Source: an uncultured Ectothiorhodospiraceae bacterium (lineage in GTDB: Bacteria > Pseudomonadota > Gammaproteobacteria > Nitrococcales > Nitrococcaceae). From it: a DNA stretch of 51,284 bases. A model generated the notes under the pieces. That model had not been told where the DNA came from. It ran no database searches and worked only from the letters and a program-made list of their open reading frames with translations. Of the stretch, positions 20,057 through 26,562 are shown piece by piece. The stretch is from the NCBI GenBank assembly GCA_913056385.1, contig CAJXND010000010.1, positions 1 through 51,284 of the forward strand. Direction: 5' to 3'. The translations under genes and the position numbers were made by a program. How positions within the stretch are numbered: the stretch's first letter is position 1; each line of letters begins with the position of its first letter.

Positions 20057-21451
20057 TCAGCCTGTTGCGAGCCGCTGCCGCGCCGCTCTCACCTGGATGC
20101 GCACCTGAGCCGGGGCCGTACCCCCAACATGGTCCCGGGCGGCCAGCGATCCGTCCAGCGTCAGGACCTCGAAGACGTCCCCGTCAATGACCTTCGAGAA
20201 CTGCTGCAGCTCGGCAAGCGACATCTCGGCCAGATCGCGCCCCTCGGCCGCGCCGTAGGCGACCGCCTTGCCAACGATTTCGTGCGCGTCCCGAAAGGCG
20301 ACGCCCTGCCGGACCAGGTAATCGGCCAGGTCTGTGGCGGTGGCAAAGCCTTCACGGGCCGCGGCACGGGTACGGTCGCGGTTCACGGTCAGGGCGGGGA
20401 CCATGTCGGCGAAGGCATGCAGGCTGTCACGAAGCGCATCCGCGGCATCGAACAGTGGTTCCTTGTCTTCCTGGTTGTCGCGGTTGTAGGCGAGCGGCTG
20501 GCCCTTCATGAGGGTGAGCAATGCCTGTAGCGCGCCATGAACCCGGGCGCTCTTGCCACGGACCAGCTCGGCGACATCGGGATTTTTCTTCTGCGGCATG
20601 ATCGAGCTGCCGGTGCAGAAGCGATCGGGTAGCTCGATGAAACCGGTCAGTGGCGAGGCCCAGATCACCAGTTCCTCTGCCATCCGCGACAGGTGCGTCA
20701 TGGTCAGTGCCGCCGCCGAGACGAATTCGATGGCGAAGTCCCGGTCGGAGACAGCATCCAGCGAGTTGCGGGTCGGTGTGTCGAAGCCCAGTTCGGCGCA
20801 GGTCTGATGGCGATCGATGGGGAAGGTCGTACCCGCCAGGGCCGCTGATCCCAGCGGCATCTGGTTAAGCCGCTGTCGGGCGTCGGCAAACCTCGCCTGA
20901 TCCCGCACCAGCATTTCATACCACGCCAGCATGTGGTGCCCGAAACTGACGGGCTGTGCGACCTGAAGATGGGTGAATCCGGGCATGACCGTGTCCGCCT
21001 CGCGTTCGGCGAGATCCACCAGCCCGGTCTGGAACCGGAGCAACAGACCGATTGACTCATCCATTACGGTGCGCAGCCACAGCCGCACGTCAGTGGCAAT
21101 CTGGTCATTCCGCGAGCGGCCCGTATGGAGCCGCTTGCCGGCCTCCCCGATACGCTCGGTGAGCCGCGCCTCGATGTTCATGTGAACGTCTTCAAGGGCC
21201 GGATCCCAGGGGAAGTCGCCGGCCTCGATCTCGGCGGCGATCGCATCCAGCCCCTCCATGATGGCGGTGGCGTCGGCTTGGCTGATGACGCCGCAGTCCG
21301 CCAACATGCGCGCATGGGCTCTCGAGCCCTGGATATCCTCGCGGTAGAGCCGTCGGTCATAGTGTTCGGAGGCACTGAAAGCGGCGACGAACGCATCCGT
21401 TGCCTCGCTGAATCGACCGCTCCACATGCCCTTTGCGTCTGACTTGCTCAT
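20057..21451 (-). CDS. argH: Argininosuccinate lyase
   Basis: It cleaves argininosuccinate to arginine and fumarate, the last step of arginine synthesis. It has 464 residues (E. coli 457), in the fumarase/aspartase superfamily. The signature [16 protein letters not shown], near residue 280, carries the catalytic Ser loop. [19 protein letters not shown] and [20 protein letters not shown] are the other conserved regions. It is divergent from an AlgR-like regulator, the arrangement seen in Pseudomonas (argH-algZ-algR-hemC), but without algZ. Confidence 0.97.
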
Positions 21452-21481: not shown

Positions 21482-21490
21482 AGTATAGCA
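21482..21490 (-). promoter_or_regulatory. Extended -10 promoter of argH
   Basis: The minus strand reads TGCTATACT, an extended -10 element. It lies 31 bp before the argH ATG at 21451, and a purine-rich GGGGAAGAAAGGG stretch precedes the ATG. No good -35 was found. Confidence 0.5.
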
Positions 21491-21573
21491 GCCGGCCGGC
21501 ACTGAACGCCGGATGCGCGGTTCTGTGAACCGGTTGGCGGCGTCGCTCCGACAGCTCGAGCAAGCTTGATCAA

Positions 21574-21598: not shown

Positions 21599-21635
21599 GT
21601 TTCAAGCCACCAATGCCTTCGGGAGGACGTAATTG

Positions 21636-22373
21636 ATGAAGATTGTTATTGCCTGCGAACAGTCATCATTGCGCCGGCGACTCGCCCGCCTGGTCGCATC
21701 CACACCCGCCTGCGCAGTGAGCGCCGTGCTAGAAGACCCGGCCGGGGTGCCGGATGCCCATCGTAATGATCCGGTCGACGTCGTCGTGCTCGGGATTCGA
21801 CAGGAGGCCGACCTGCGGGTCGCCGTGGCACTGACCAATGAGCGCCCGGCGCCGGCCGTGTTGCTGACCAGTTCGTTGACCGACCCCATGCTGCCCCGGC
21901 TCGAGCAAAGCGGGGTTGACTACGTCCTGGAGTATGTCCAGCCGGCACGGCTCAAATCGGCCATCCAGAATGCGCGACCGCTCAGTGCCGAGCAGATTGC
22001 CCGAATCCAGGCGCCCGGTTCCGGCGGTGAACGACGACATATCCTCTGCCGCCGACGCAATGGGCTGAGCCTGATCCCGGTGGACGGGGTGCGCTGTTTC
22101 GTGGCCGACCAGAAATACGTCACGGTCCAGCACGACGAGGGCGAGGATCTCATCGAGGATTCACTATGCCGGCTGGAGGCGGAATTCGGCCCCCGGTTCC
22201 TGCGCGTCCATCGCAGTGCCCTGATTGCCCGGGGTGCCCTGCGCGGGCTGGAGAAGGATCTGGAGGGACGCACACAAGCGCTCGTCGATGGGAGTGACGA
22301 GCGCCTGCCGGTGAGCCGGCGGCGCCTGCCGCAGGTCAGGCAATGGCTCAGGTCCGCGGCCGGTCCGGGCTGA
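21636..22373 (+). CDS. AlgR-like LytTR regulator with degenerate receiver
   Basis: The protein has 245 residues. The C-terminal LytTR DNA-binding domain (about 130-243) is well kept: GLSLIPVDGVRCFVADQKYV, RFLRVHRSALIAR and LPVSRRRLPQVRQWL resemble AlgR. The N-terminal 120 residues align to the AlgR receiver, but the key residues are changed. Phospho-acceptor Asp54 corresponds to Gly53 (VVVLGIRQ), the DDE acidic cluster is Cys7-Glu8-Gln9, the switch Thr is Ser, and the conserved Lys is Glu. Phosphorylation is therefore unlikely. It stands at the AlgR locus, before hemC, but no AlgZ kinase gene is present. The ATG at 21636 follows GGGAGGA. Confidence 0.88.
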   Translation: MKIVIACEQSSLRRRLARLVASTPACAVSAVLEDPAGVPDAHRNDPVDVVVLGIRQEADLRVAVALTNERPAPAVLLTSSLTDPMLPRLEQSGVDYVLEYVQPARLKSAIQNARPLSAEQIARIQAPGSGGERRHILCRRRNGLSLIPVDGVRCFVADQKYVTVQHDEGEDLIEDSLCRLEAEFGPRFLRVHRSALIARGALRGLEKDLEGRTQALVDGSDERLPVSRRRLPQVRQWLRSAAGPG

Positions 22374-22452: not shown

Positions 22453-23376
22453 ATGTCCTTAGATCATCTTCGTATCGCCACCCGCCGCAGCCCGCTTGCC
22501 GTCTGGCAGGCCGAACATGTCGCCGACCGTCTGAAAGCCCGATACCCAGGGCTCGGCGTCGAACTGGTGCGCCTGTCCACGCGCGGTGATGAGATCACCG
22601 ACCGGCCCTTGATGGCCGTTGGTGGCAAGGCGCTTTTCGTCAAGGCGCTCGAGGAGGGCATGCTCGCCGGCAAGGCGGATATTGCCGTGCATTCCATGAA
22701 GGACGTGCCCGCGGTGGTGCCGGAGGCCTTCCGGTTGCCCGTCATCCTCGACCGCGAAGACCCCTGCGATGCCCTGGTATCCCGCCATTACGGCGATATC
22801 GCGGAGCTTCCTGCGGGAGGCCGCGTGGGCACGGCCAGCCTGCGCCGCGAGTGCCAGATCCGGGCGCGGCGTCCCGATCTGGTCGTCGAGTCGCTACGGG
22901 GCAACGTCCAGACCCGGCTCGCGAAGCTGGATGCCGGTGAGTTCGATGTCATCGTGCTGGCGGCATCGGGATTGCGGCGACTGGGGATGGTCGACCAGAT
23001 CACCCGGGTTATGCCGCCGGAAGAGAGCCTGCCCGCGGTGGGTCAGGGGGCGCTCGGTATCGAGTGTCGCGCCGACGATTCGGAGGTCGAGGCCCTGATT
23101 GCCGGTCTGGATGACCGTGATACGCATGACCGGGTTGCCGCCGAGCGTGCGGTCAACGCCAGGCTGGATGGCAGCTGCCATGTACCGCTTGCGGCCTATG
23201 CCGTGCTCGAGGGGGACAGTCTTTGGTTGCGGGCACTGGTGGCCAGCCGGGACGGGCGTCGGGTCCTGCGCGCCGAAGGCCGTGCGCCCCGGACCGAGGG
23301 TGTCGAGCTGGGCGGCGCCGTTGCCGAGGATCTGCTCTCCCAGGGCGCCGCTGAAATACTGGCCGAGGTCCATTGA
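22453..23376 (+). CDS. hemC: Porphobilinogen deaminase (hydroxymethylbilane synthase)
   Basis: It polymerises four porphobilinogens to hydroxymethylbilane for tetrapyrrole synthesis. The ATG at 22453 gives 307 residues (E. coli 313) starting MSLDHLRIATRRSPLAVWQA. Cys242 in LDGSCHVPLAAYA carries the dipyrromethane cofactor. Arg-rich GTASLRRECQIRARRPDL and KADIAVHSMKDVP are conserved. A TTG start at 22378 would add 25 residues with no family similarity. The ATG has no Shine-Dalgarno and directly follows GGCC plus six T. It heads the hemCDXY series after the algR-like gene. Confidence 0.97.
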   Translation: MSLDHLRIATRRSPLAVWQAEHVADRLKARYPGLGVELVRLSTRGDEITDRPLMAVGGKALFVKALEEGMLAGKADIAVHSMKDVPAVVPEAFRLPVILDREDPCDALVSRHYGDIAELPAGGRVGTASLRRECQIRARRPDLVVESLRGNVQTRLAKLDAGEFDVIVLAASGLRRLGMVDQITRVMPPEESLPAVGQGALGIECRADDSEVEALIAGLDDRDTHDRVAAERAVNARLDGSCHVPLAAYAVLEGDSLWLRALVASRDGRRVLRAEGRAPRTEGVELGGAVAEDLLSQGAAEILAEVH

Positions 23377-24128
23377 GCGCCCCCCTCGGTGGATGCCGCA
23401 TCCTGGTCACCCGACCGGCGGGCCAGGCCGAGGGATTGATCCGGCAGCTGGAAGCCGCCGGGGCGACGGTGTTACACCGTCCGACGCTCGCGATCGTTCC
23501 CTGTGATCCCGAATCCACGATCGACGGACACTGTCCTGACTGGCTTGTCTTTACCAGCCCTAATGCCGTGCATCACGGACTGGTGCATCTGCCTCTGGCG
23601 CATTGTCGCTCGACAAGGCTGGCCGCGGTGGGACCTGGCACCGCGGCCAGCCTGCGCCATGCGGGACGACCGGTGACCGTGGCCCCGGTTGCCGGCGGTG
23701 GCGCCGATGCATTGCTTGCGGAGCCGGCGTTTGATCCCGACCCGGGTGAGACCGTCGTGATCGTTCGTGGCCGGGGTGGACGTCGGCGTCTTCAGTGCGC
23801 CCTTCTGATGCAGGATGTCGACCTCTGCGAGATGGTGGTCTACGAGCGCATCAAGCCCGCCGACACCCTGGCGATTCCCCGGGACTGGCAGGCCAGGCGA
23901 CTCGACTGCACAATCGTGACAAGTCAAACGGGACTCGAGCATTTGCTCGGCATGGCGGAACCAGGCGCGATAGAGTGGGTCAGGCAGGGACGGCTGGTCA
24001 CGGTAAGCGATCGTATCGCGCAGGCCGCGACAGCCGCCGGATTTGATCGGCCGCTGGTGGCCGATGGGGCGGACGATGACGCCATCACCCGCGCCGTCTG
24101 CGCAGCGCTGCAGAGAGAAAACCAATGA
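23373..24128 (+). CDS. hemD: Uroporphyrinogen-III synthase
   Basis: It cyclises and inverts ring D of hydroxymethylbilane to give uroporphyrinogen III. It has 251 residues, from a TTG start (23373) that overlaps the hemC stop (TTGA) and is preceded by GAGG. HemD is weakly conserved, but the N-terminal GCRILVTRPAGQAEGLIRQL, the central DWLVFTSPNAVHHGLVHL, AAVGPGTAASLRHAG and YERIKPAD fit, and the position between hemC and hemX settles it. Confidence 0.93.
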   Translation: MSAPLGGCRILVTRPAGQAEGLIRQLEAAGATVLHRPTLAIVPCDPESTIDGHCPDWLVFTSPNAVHHGLVHLPLAHCRSTRLAAVGPGTAASLRHAGRPVTVAPVAGGGADALLAEPAFDPDPGETVVIVRGRGGRRRLQCALLMQDVDLCEMVVYERIKPADTLAIPRDWQARRLDCTIVTSQTGLEHLLGMAEPGAIEWVRQGRLVTVSDRIAQAATAAGFDRPLVADGADDDAITRAVCAALQRENQ

Positions 24129-25345
24129 CTGAAAAGGACAAGGATCCCGAGGAGCCGACGACGGGCAACGGCCCGCTCAGCGACAAAGGCGGGGAACAGC
24201 GGCCGGCCGACGATTCGCGGCCTGCCTCCGTGTCGGTGGATAACGGCGCCAGCGATAATGGCGAGGATCCAGGGGAGAAGACCGAGCCGGCCCCGACGCC
24301 TCCGCCCAGGGGCCGCTCCGCGGGTCGCGGCGCCCTGGTGATGGCGGTATTCGTTGCCGCGCTGGCTGCCGCCGGTGGTGGCTATCTGTACCTCCAGGTG
24401 CAGTCACTGGCCGACGCCCAGTCACGTCTTGCCGAACGCAGCGAACTGCAGGCACTGGCTGACAGGCAGCAGAGCGATATCGGTGAACTCAACGGGCGGA
24501 TCACCAACCTGAATGAGGCCCTGGAGTCTCGCCTGCAATCGCTCGCGCGACTCGAGAATCGCATGGCGGATCAGGTGTCCGCCCGCAAGGAGCTGGCCGA
24601 TCGGGTCGATCAGCTCTATCGGCGCATGCAGTCGGAAACCGATGACTGGCGCGTGGCCGAGGCGAGTTACCTGGCCCGAATGGCCCTGCACCGGGCCCGC
24701 TTCAATGGCGATATCGCGGGTGCGCTCGAGGCGCTTGAGTCGGCCGATATCCTGCTGTCAGGCCTGGGGGGGACGGGCATTGACCGCCGCGAGGCCATCA
24801 GCGAGGCCGTGGATCGTCTGCTCGCGGTGGACCGGGTGGACATGGTCGCCATCAACCGCGGCCTGGACCGTGTCGCCGATCAACTCGATGATCTTCCCCT
24901 GGCCGCCGGTGTCAGCGACTTTGAGCAGGATGCGGCGGATGACGCCGGAAAAGGGGTGGAGACATCGGCCAACGGCGATTGGCAGAGCCGCCTCGAGCGG
25001 GCCCGTGACCGCCTGCTGGAAGGCCTGGGCGGACTGGTGACGGTGAGCCGCGACCGCCAGGTGGAACCCCTGCCGGAACCCGAGTCGCGATTCCTTCTCC
25101 AGCAGAACCTCCTGCTGCAGATCGAGTCGGCAAGACTGGCGGCCCTGCGCGGGGAGCCGGAAACCTACCGCGATGCACTGCAGCGGGTGGATGACTGGGT
25201 GGCCGCCTATTTCGACTCCGCCTCGCCGGTGGTCTCGGCGGTCCGGGAGCGACTGGCCGGGCTCATGGAAGAGCCGGTGAAAGTGGAGGCGCCCGACATT
25301 GCCGGCGTGCTGTCACCCGTGCTGGACGGGAGCCGTGAGCCATGA
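24125..25345 (+). CDS. hemX: HemX family membrane protein
   Basis: This 406-residue protein is of the HemX family, sometimes annotated as uroporphyrin-III C-methyltransferase although it lacks a methyltransferase domain. An acidic, Pro-rich cytoplasmic N-terminus (1-66) precedes one membrane segment (about 69-91). A periplasmic coiled coil follows (about 92-165), then a helical domain with AEASYLARMALHRARFNGD and LLLQIESARLAALRGEPETY. Its precise role in haem metabolism is not known. The ATG overlaps the hemD stop (ATGA). Confidence 0.9.
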   Translation: MTEKDKDPEEPTTGNGPLSDKGGEQRPADDSRPASVSVDNGASDNGEDPGEKTEPAPTPPPRGRSAGRGALVMAVFVAALAAAGGGYLYLQVQSLADAQSRLAERSELQALADRQQSDIGELNGRITNLNEALESRLQSLARLENRMADQVSARKELADRVDQLYRRMQSETDDWRVAEASYLARMALHRARFNGDIAGALEALESADILLSGLGGTGIDRREAISEAVDRLLAVDRVDMVAINRGLDRVADQLDDLPLAAGVSDFEQDAADDAGKGVETSANGDWQSRLERARDRLLEGLGGLVTVSRDRQVEPLPEPESRFLLQQNLLLQIESARLAALRGEPETYRDALQRVDDWVAAYFDSASPVVSAVRERLAGLMEEPVKVEAPDIAGVLSPVLDGSREP

Positions 25346-26562
25346 TGGGCCGGCTGTTACTGCTGGTCGTCCTGCTGCTCGCAAGCGTTACCGCGGCACT
25401 GTGGTTTGCCAACCAGGGCGGTTTCCTGATGCTCCGCGTCGGCGAGGTCACGGTGCAGACGAGCCTGTTCGTGGCGGTCGTTGCATTCATCGCCGCCTGG
25501 GTGGTGGTCACCCTGCTCTTTGGGCTGGCGCGGCGCCTGCTGCTGGCACCGGGGCGAATCCGCGTGCGCTGGGCGAGTCGGCGCACGCACAAGGCGCAGC
25601 GCGAGCTGGTGGACGGGCTGATCGAACTGGCCGAGGGCCGGTATGCCGAGGCCGAGCGCCATCTGGAGGGAACCAGCCGGGCGGCCGTCCAGCCGCTCAT
25701 GCATCATCTGCTGGCGGCCATCGCCGCGCAGCGACGGGGTGAGTGGCAGCGGCGGGATGACCTGCTGGCAGCGGCGGATGCCGCCAATCCCCGGGCGCGG
25801 GTCGCCGTGGGGCTGCTCCAGGCCCAGTTGCAGGTGGAGGCCGAACAGTGGGAGCAGGCCCTGGCCACGCTGGGTTGGTTGAGGGAGAAGGCGCCACGCA
25901 ACCATCGCGTTCTCATGTTTCTGGCGAGGGCCATGCAGGCGGTGGATGACCACGCCGGGCTCGCGGATCTCCTGCCGGATCTGCGCCGGGAAAAGGCGTT
26001 GCCCGAGCAGGAGCTTGCCGAAATCGAGTACCGGGCGCTGGGTCAACGGGTCGACGCGCTTGGCGTCGAGGCCAATGCCGACAGCCTGGGCCGTATCTGG
26101 AAGTCTCTGCCCAAGGTGCGCCGGCGCGATCCGGCATTGCAGGCCCGCTATGCCCGTGCGCTGGTTGATGCGGATTGCCCGGTGACCGCCGAGCAGCAGC
26201 TTCGTCGCTGGTTGCGCCAGCACTGGGCGCCGGAGCTGGTCGAGGTTTATGGCGAACTGCCGGTCGACCCGCCCCAGCGGGTCTACGACCGGATCACCGG
26301 ATGGCTGCGGGAGCGGCCGGAGGACCCGGCACTGCTATACGCCGCTGCGCGCCAGGCTGCCCGCTGCGAGCTCTGGGGACAGGCCCGGGGTTATCTGGAG
26401 GCAGCCGTCGGGCGCAGCAACAATCCGGCCATGGCCCGCATGCTCGCCGAACTCTATGAACGGCTTGGCGAGGAGGAGCAGGCCCGCCGCACCTACCGCC
26501 AGGCGCTGGGACTCGACCCGCTGGGCAATAGTCTGCCGCGGATCGAGTCCAGTGGTCACTAG
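25342..26562 (+). CDS. hemY: HemY family TPR membrane protein
   Basis: This 406-residue inner-membrane protein of the proteobacterial HemY family is not the protoporphyrinogen oxidase of the same name. Two membrane segments (about 4-22 and 38-60) are followed by TPR-like helices. The family's NRVLMFLARA-type repeat region appears as NHRVLMFLARAMQAVDDHAG, and PALLYAAARQAARCELWGQA lies in the C-terminal TPR. It is the last gene of the hem series. Its TAG overlaps the stop of the convergent qor gene in a CTAG tetranucleotide. Confidence 0.9.
   Translation: MMGRLLLLVVLLLASVTAALWFANQGGFLMLRVGEVTVQTSLFVAVVAFIAAWVVVTLLFGLARRLLLAPGRIRVRWASRRTHKAQRELVDGLIELAEGRYAEAERHLEGTSRAAVQPLMHHLLAAIAAQRRGEWQRRDDLLAAADAANPRARVAVGLLQAQLQVEAEQWEQALATLGWLREKAPRNHRVLMFLARAMQAVDDHAGLADLLPDLRREKALPEQELAEIEYRALGQRVDALGVEANADSLGRIWKSLPKVRRRDPALQARYARALVDADCPVTAEQQLRRWLRQHWAPELVEVYGELPVDPPQRVYDRITGWLRERPEDPALLYAAARQAARCELWGQARGYLEAAVGRSNNPAMARMLAELYERLGEEEQARRTYRQALGLDPLGNSLPRIESSGH

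Follow-up and report, generated by a model that had tools for sequence, protein, structure and literature searches.

The window analysed here (the whole stretch of 51,284 nucleotides) encodes an AlgR orthologue whose receiver domain has lost its phosphotransfer residues and for which the genome holds no LytS/AlgZ-type kinase, a situation that recurs in each of the 14 species sampled from the salt-loving genus Spiribacter. The comparisons place on the stem of this genus both the loss of algZ/fimS from between argH and algR and that of the phospho-acceptor, the acidic pair and the Lys of the receiver. The resulting pseudo-receiver/LytTR transcription factor should not be switchable by Asp phosphorylation, since the chemistry of this reaction requires the residues that are gone. 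We regard it as fairly probable that this protein, named here pseudo-AlgR, is a phosphorylation-independent regulator which would bind DNA constitutively and whose supply would be controlled through a CRP-like promoter element.

Identification of the locus

The gene is located between a divergent argH and the genes hemC, hemD, hemX and hemY (Table 1). The classical argH / algR-hemCD locus recognised by a previous reading made from the sequence alone (the sequence-only reading) is confirmed by the equivalog matches of argH and hemC. Profile searches and the gene tree identify a full-length AlgR orthologue, which occupies the argH / (algZ) algR-hemC position, groups with AlgR in the tree and contains a LytTR domain. 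A sequence search of the PDB with the window protein gave no match. In 13 Spiribacter genomes AlgR is the only LytTR match, and one genome displays a second, weak match (G009:C1:950714-950956).

Table 1. Features of the algR locus in the window (positions are those of the whole stretch).
Feature	Position	Strand	Evidence or remark
argH, divergent upstream neighbour	20057..21451	-	NCBIfam TIGR00838 equivalog, 612 bits for a cut-off of 279.5
Likely argH -10, TATACT	21482..21487	-	sequence and alignment of 14 congeners; equivalent sequence in most relatives
Promoter footprint TGTGAACCGGTTGGCG	21524..21539	+	CRP/Vfr-like, TGTGA-N6-TGGCG; centred near -41.5 of the putative algR promoter; binding protein putative
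Putative algR -10, CAAGCT	21561..21566	+	CA(A/T)NYT in 14/14 Spiribacter
Shine-Dalgarno-like GGGAGGA	21621..21627	+	sequence, 5' of the algR ATG
Pseudo-AlgR gene	21636..22373	+	245 aa, ATG at 21636
Pseudo-receiver domain, residues 1-113	21636..21974	+	alignment, AlphaFold2 model, VIA-align
LytTR DNA-binding domain, residues 135-241	22038..22358	+	PF04397, E 8e-16
hemC	22453..23376	+	TIGR00212 equivalog; starts 79 bp past algR
hemD	23373..24128	+	uroporphyrinogen-III synthase models, E 4e-32, under their cut-offs; 4-base overlap with hemC
hemX-like	24125..25345	+	HemX half of NF005411, E 1e-40, under cut-off; 4-base overlap with hemD
hemY (TPR protein)	25342..26562	+	TIGR00540 over cut-off; 4-base overlap with hemX

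The receiver domain

The alignment with the relatives reveals that the acidic DDE motif is replaced by Cys7-Glu8-Gln9 in the window protein, the phospho-acceptor Asp54 by Gly53, the switch Thr by Ser79 and the conserved Lys by Glu99, all four being substitutions that the sequence-only reading had reported. The acidic pair (DD), the phospho-Asp and the Lys are missing in all 14 Spiribacter species, and the domain therefore departs from the receiver of an AlgZ/AlgR two-component system, which has these three elements. The position of the phospho-Asp is occupied by Gly in 12 species and by His in two. The claim for the switch Thr holds for the window protein and does not extend to the genus, where four species keep Thr and the others have Ser, Gly, Cys or Ala. 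In 11 of the 14 species the second residue of the acidic pair is Glu8. Cys7, Gly53, D45, P103 and R105 are unchanged throughout a main clade of 12 species; in the two species that diverge most, residue 7 is Ser and the position of Gly53 holds His. Only 10 residues are invariant across the 14 receivers and none of them is Asp, His, Ser, Thr, Tyr, Cys or Lys, so that no alternative phospho-site is common to all the species.

Outside the genus, the six positions checked are retained in 73 of 73 AlgR loci of one named genome collection (80 AlgR loci, the other seven belonging to the Spiribacter clade and being dead). The sequence-only reading had named the retention of Asp in close relatives as the mark of a sequencing or recent mutation event. 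The orthologue comparison that it suggested shows that none of the 14 species of the genus retains this residue and that the loss is older than the radiation of the genus.

The profile PF00072 (Response_reg) gave no match to the window protein even at E<=1; one congener scores E 0.025, which is under the cut-off, and the AlgR of an intact relative (L015) reaches 88 bits. The other small pseudo-receiver families of Pfam named in a recent review (PMC12632262) gave no match to the window protein either. The structure prediction, another check that had been suggested, yields a complete (beta-alpha)5 receiver fold despite the lost residues, with all five beta-alpha units and a pLDDT mostly above 90 in the AlphaFold2 model. 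This model aligns with CheY-type receivers with Z scores of 13-15 over about 110 residues (VIA-align). With a predicted receiver fold and without the phospho-Asp and the other catalytic residues, the domain is classified as a pseudo-receiver, an assignment based on homology and fold, recognition by PF00072 being a means of identification and not a property of the domain.

Loss of the kinase

The sequence-only reading had noticed that algZ/fimS is missing from the locus, and the genome search that it called for extends this observation. The family PF06580, to which the LytS/AlgZ/FimS kinases belong, has zero matches in the genome of the window (98.8% complete) and zero in the 13 congeners, and the cognate kinase of an AlgZ/AlgR two-component system is thus absent from these genomes. 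The identical search detects the kinase adjoining algR in relatives. Among 54 genomes of the order, 27 contain AlgR and the kinase, 14 contain AlgR without the kinase and 13 contain neither. The 14 kinase-less genomes all belong to a single genus, formed by Spiribacter and its uncultured kin, and the kinase is present in each of the 27 other genomes with AlgR. According to PMC3832224, Spiribacter has streamlined genomes, lacks motility and possesses very few regulatory systems.

The loss of the type IV pilus was considered as a simple cause of the loss of the kinase and was rejected, PilO-like and PilQ genes persisting in Spiribacter and the diverged PilM being at most suggestive. The PilO-like and PilQ genes stand before aroK-aroB. 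A pilM-like gene is kept and is strongly diverged, the canonical PilM of the relatives being detected with E around 1e-130 (pilus-gene coordinates: L194:2994-5038 and, on contig 40 of the window's own genome, G000:C40:8632-9498).

Conservation of the LytTR domain and evolutionary rates

The LytTR domain is intact, as had been read from the sequence: the window protein obtains 58.5 bits with PF04397 for a cut-off of 22.6, and the model aligns with the LytTR structure 3d6w with a Z score of 15.7 (VIA-align). The mean identity within the genus is 78% for this domain against 49% for the receiver, and some LytTR residues are invariant in Spiribacter and in the outsiders alike. In the AlgR gene tree, Spiribacter forms one clade (support 95) beside Arhodomonas (100), the position expected under vertical descent.

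Branch lengths were estimated for the receiver and the LytTR domain separately on one fixed topology, and the values of the groups were obtained by subtraction. Outside the genus the two domains evolve equally fast, with summed branch lengths of 9.7 (receiver) and 9.5 (LytTR); inside the genus the sums are 6.9 and 1.8, respectively, so that the receiver evolves there about 3-4 times faster. On the stem branch of Spiribacter the values are 1.14 and 0.39. Among the lineages compared, the change of rate of the receiver is limited to Spiribacter, apart from one genome (G158) where the whole protein is fast. In close pairs, the dN/dS of the receiver is comprised between 0.07 and 0.21 (approximate values, Nei-Gojobori), which indicates purifying selection and not free decay.

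A conserved element in the algR promoter

Each of the 14 Spiribacter species has the consensus TGTGAAC-N6-GCG between argH and algR; a scan of relatives did not detect it in front of their algR genes. In Spiribacter the consensus is followed by the motif CA(A/T)NYT at a spacing of 21 bp in 13 species and 22 bp in the remaining one (L007). This motif has A and T where a -10 element needs them most; a consensus sigma-70 -35/-10 pair was not found in the algR promoter region. Where it was measured, the distance from the footprint to the -10 of argH lies anywhere between 26 and 71 bp. Because of this variation, the footprint was rejected as an argH element and assigned to algR. With up to two mismatches, the 16-bp element has only one genus-wide match, the algR promoter. 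A regulon with several targets was discarded, the remaining matches at this threshold being scattered and single.

Class II promoters have CRP centred at about -41.5, and this is the position that the 16-bp element would occupy if CA(A/T)NYT is the -10. The left half and the spacing of the element match a class II CRP site, whereas the right half, TGGCG, shares only two of five bases with TCACA. The genome of the window encodes a CRP equivalog (NF008732, 293 bits vs 266), and a CRP equivalog with the recognition helix REMVGR or REMAGR is detected in all genomes but one (13 of 14), and that one is 74% complete. Nine copies of the palindrome TGTGA-N6-TCACA were counted across the 14 genomes and a single match in the control; five of the nine begin with TGTGAAC. 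In Pseudomonas aeruginosa, the proximal algZR promoter depends wholly on the CRP-type regulator Vfr, which acts through poorly matching sites (PMC8787478). From the conserved element, the CRP equivalog and this precedent we infer that CRP may bind and control the algR promoter.

The autoregulation by AlgR was rejected as the main reading of the footprint, a weight matrix built from ten published AlgR site entries giving modest scores in most species; an exact match to fimU-ABS1 was found in two Spiribacter species. Among the copies of the CRP-consensus palindrome counted above, TGTGAACNNNNTCACA is located at 1501 of L188 and of L193, directly upstream (about 100 bp) of the gene of a MarR-type EPS-associated regulator, and a third copy, at 1501 of L185, is in the equivalent region of another species.

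Kinase-less AlgR outside Spiribacter

A screen of 369 genomes drawn from across the class recovered 216 with an AlgR-like match. Only G000 (the genome of the window), G158, G209 and G368 have this match without PF06580, and G237 has a weak PF06580 match. Most of the sequence of G158, a genome of another family with 2.0 Mb in one contig, was covered. Its algR (L269:7662-8414, at about 987.7 kb of contig 1) is found in an argH / algR-hemC locus with no kinase. The receiver has Glu-Gln as acidic pair and retains the Asp, Thr and Lys, and the entire protein is fast-evolving. G373, listed in the same genus, has the kinase and an intact receiver, and the tree joins the two weakly (48). G158 therefore looks like an independent and partial instance, represented by one genome.

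The absence of the kinase in G209 and G368 could be due to losses or to assembly gaps. G209 equals G319, a genome of the same genus that has the kinase, in the strength of its AlgR-like match.

Regulation by pseudo-AlgR

The joint loss of the kinase and of the phospho-acceptor had been taken by the sequence-only reading as a sign of a phosphorylation-independent regulator, and the losses in 14 of 14 species together with the kept LytTR domain support this proposal. Most probably, pseudo-AlgR forms dimers and occupies LytTR-type sites constitutively. If the binding is constitutive, the output would be set by the amount of pseudo-AlgR that is made: CRP would act on algR (and hemCD), and pseudo-AlgR on LytTR targets, with no sensor kinase involved. 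Constitutive dimers are common among the known pseudo-receiver regulators (PMC12632262), and for the AlgR of P. aeruginosa an effect on alginate production that requires neither phosphorylation nor AlgZ has been described (PMC8787478; also PMC4064291). Against this reading, the sole target suggested is the operon of pseudo-AlgR itself, and it is a putative one.

It had also been proposed that the regulator was kept for another input. This is one possibility; given the promoter evidence, control by supply, through the transcription of algR, is at least as likely. That the pseudo-receiver gained a new direct input replacing the phosphate (a small molecule, a partner protein or a redox reaction at Cys7) appears rather unlikely to us. 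The low dN/dS and the kept predicted fold are in its favour, ligand- and redox-controlled pseudo-receivers have precedents (reviewed in PMC12632262), and the invariance of Cys7 and Gly53 in the 12 species of the main clade, with that of D45, P103 and R105, could be the sign of a specific input. However, the receiver is variable within the genus when compared with the LytTR domain, and Ser7 and His in the two most divergent species imply that no pocket residue is common to all 14.

The receiver could instead be a decaying remnant, the LytTR domain working alone and the receiver serving as a passive platform for dimerisation or folding on its way out. The acceleration confined to the genus agrees with this explanation, as do the catalytic positions lost differently in different species. 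The full-length open frame in 14 of 14 species at about 50% identity, the dN/dS far below 1 and the complete fold predicted oppose it, and we hold it to be unlikely.

In P. aeruginosa, algZR is co-transcribed with hemCD and its disruption lowers the expression of hemC (PMC5790918). A tie of pseudo-AlgR to the downstream haem genes, as suggested previously, finds no support here: the algR-hemC order is ancestral and is also found in relatives with an intact AlgZ/AlgR pair, so that it is uninformative on pseudo-AlgR, and the haem link is purely positional and ancestral. We consider it quite improbable that the pseudo-receiver is a new sensor, for example of redox at Cys7, of haem or of a tetrapyrrole precursor that the products of its operon synthesise. 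If it were one, haem synthesis would be under the feedback control of a one-component regulator derived from a two-component one.

Phosphorylation at another residue, whether from a small donor molecule or from a kinase that is not the cognate one, is very improbable. Spiribacter still has other histidine kinases: genomes at least 90% complete have 10-15 HATPase_c matches each (a count that includes GyrB, MutL and similar ATPases) and Glu8 is frequent at the second acidic position, but the Lys is gone in every species, none of the residues invariant in the 14 receivers is Asp, His, Ser, Thr or Tyr, and no LytS/AlgZ-type kinase is left. Finally, sequencing error and chance are excluded by the loss common to 14 species with 73 of 73 outsiders intact, and an assembly artefact or a recent mutation of a single strain has a negligible probability, the identical losses occurring in 14 species, several of them with genomes assembled into one to three contigs, and the flanking genes being intact.

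Comparison with known systems

The AlgZ(FimS)/AlgR system is that of P. aeruginosa and of most gammaproteobacteria with AlgR. The Spiribacter protein resembles this AlgR in its locus, domain order, vertical descent and LytTR residues, and differs by the absence of AlgZ, of the phospho-Asp, acidic pair and Lys and of recognition by PF00072, and by its own CRP-like element in the algR promoter. LytTR regulators with neither histidine kinase nor receiver, HdrR and BrsR, reportedly exist in streptococci, where they are paired with a membrane inhibitor gene; Spiribacter, in contrast, keeps a domain of receiver fold, and the neighbours are argH and hemC.

Aspartate-less pseudo-receivers such as ChxR, HP1043, GlnR, RitR and FrzS also have a receiver fold without phosphotransfer residues (PMC4395418, PMC12632262). 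They are mostly encoded by orphan genes and often have a DNA-binding output, as here, but the output of the Spiribacter protein is LytTR and its receiver is too divergent for PF00072. Gly at the position of the Asp represents 11% of the aspartate-less receivers, with no characterised example having a structure in 2015 (PMC4395418). Neither LytTR nor AlgR is named in the text of PMC4395418 or PMC12632262. Pseudo-receiver response regulators are thus already known, and we found no report of an AlgR/LytTR-type example in the open-access literature, which is weak evidence of absence. Counts based on Pfam miss proteins such as pseudo-AlgR.

The origin and the control of pseudo-receivers are considered an open question (PMC12632262). 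The transition is caught cleanly in Spiribacter, a streamlined genus in which every sampled species shows it and whose sister genera have retained the ancestral kinase and regulator. For the receiver, the jump in rate is measurable with the LytTR domain of the same protein as reference, and G158 apparently represents a second lineage at a less advanced stage. As for what may have replaced the kinase, the promoter element offers a direct hypothesis.
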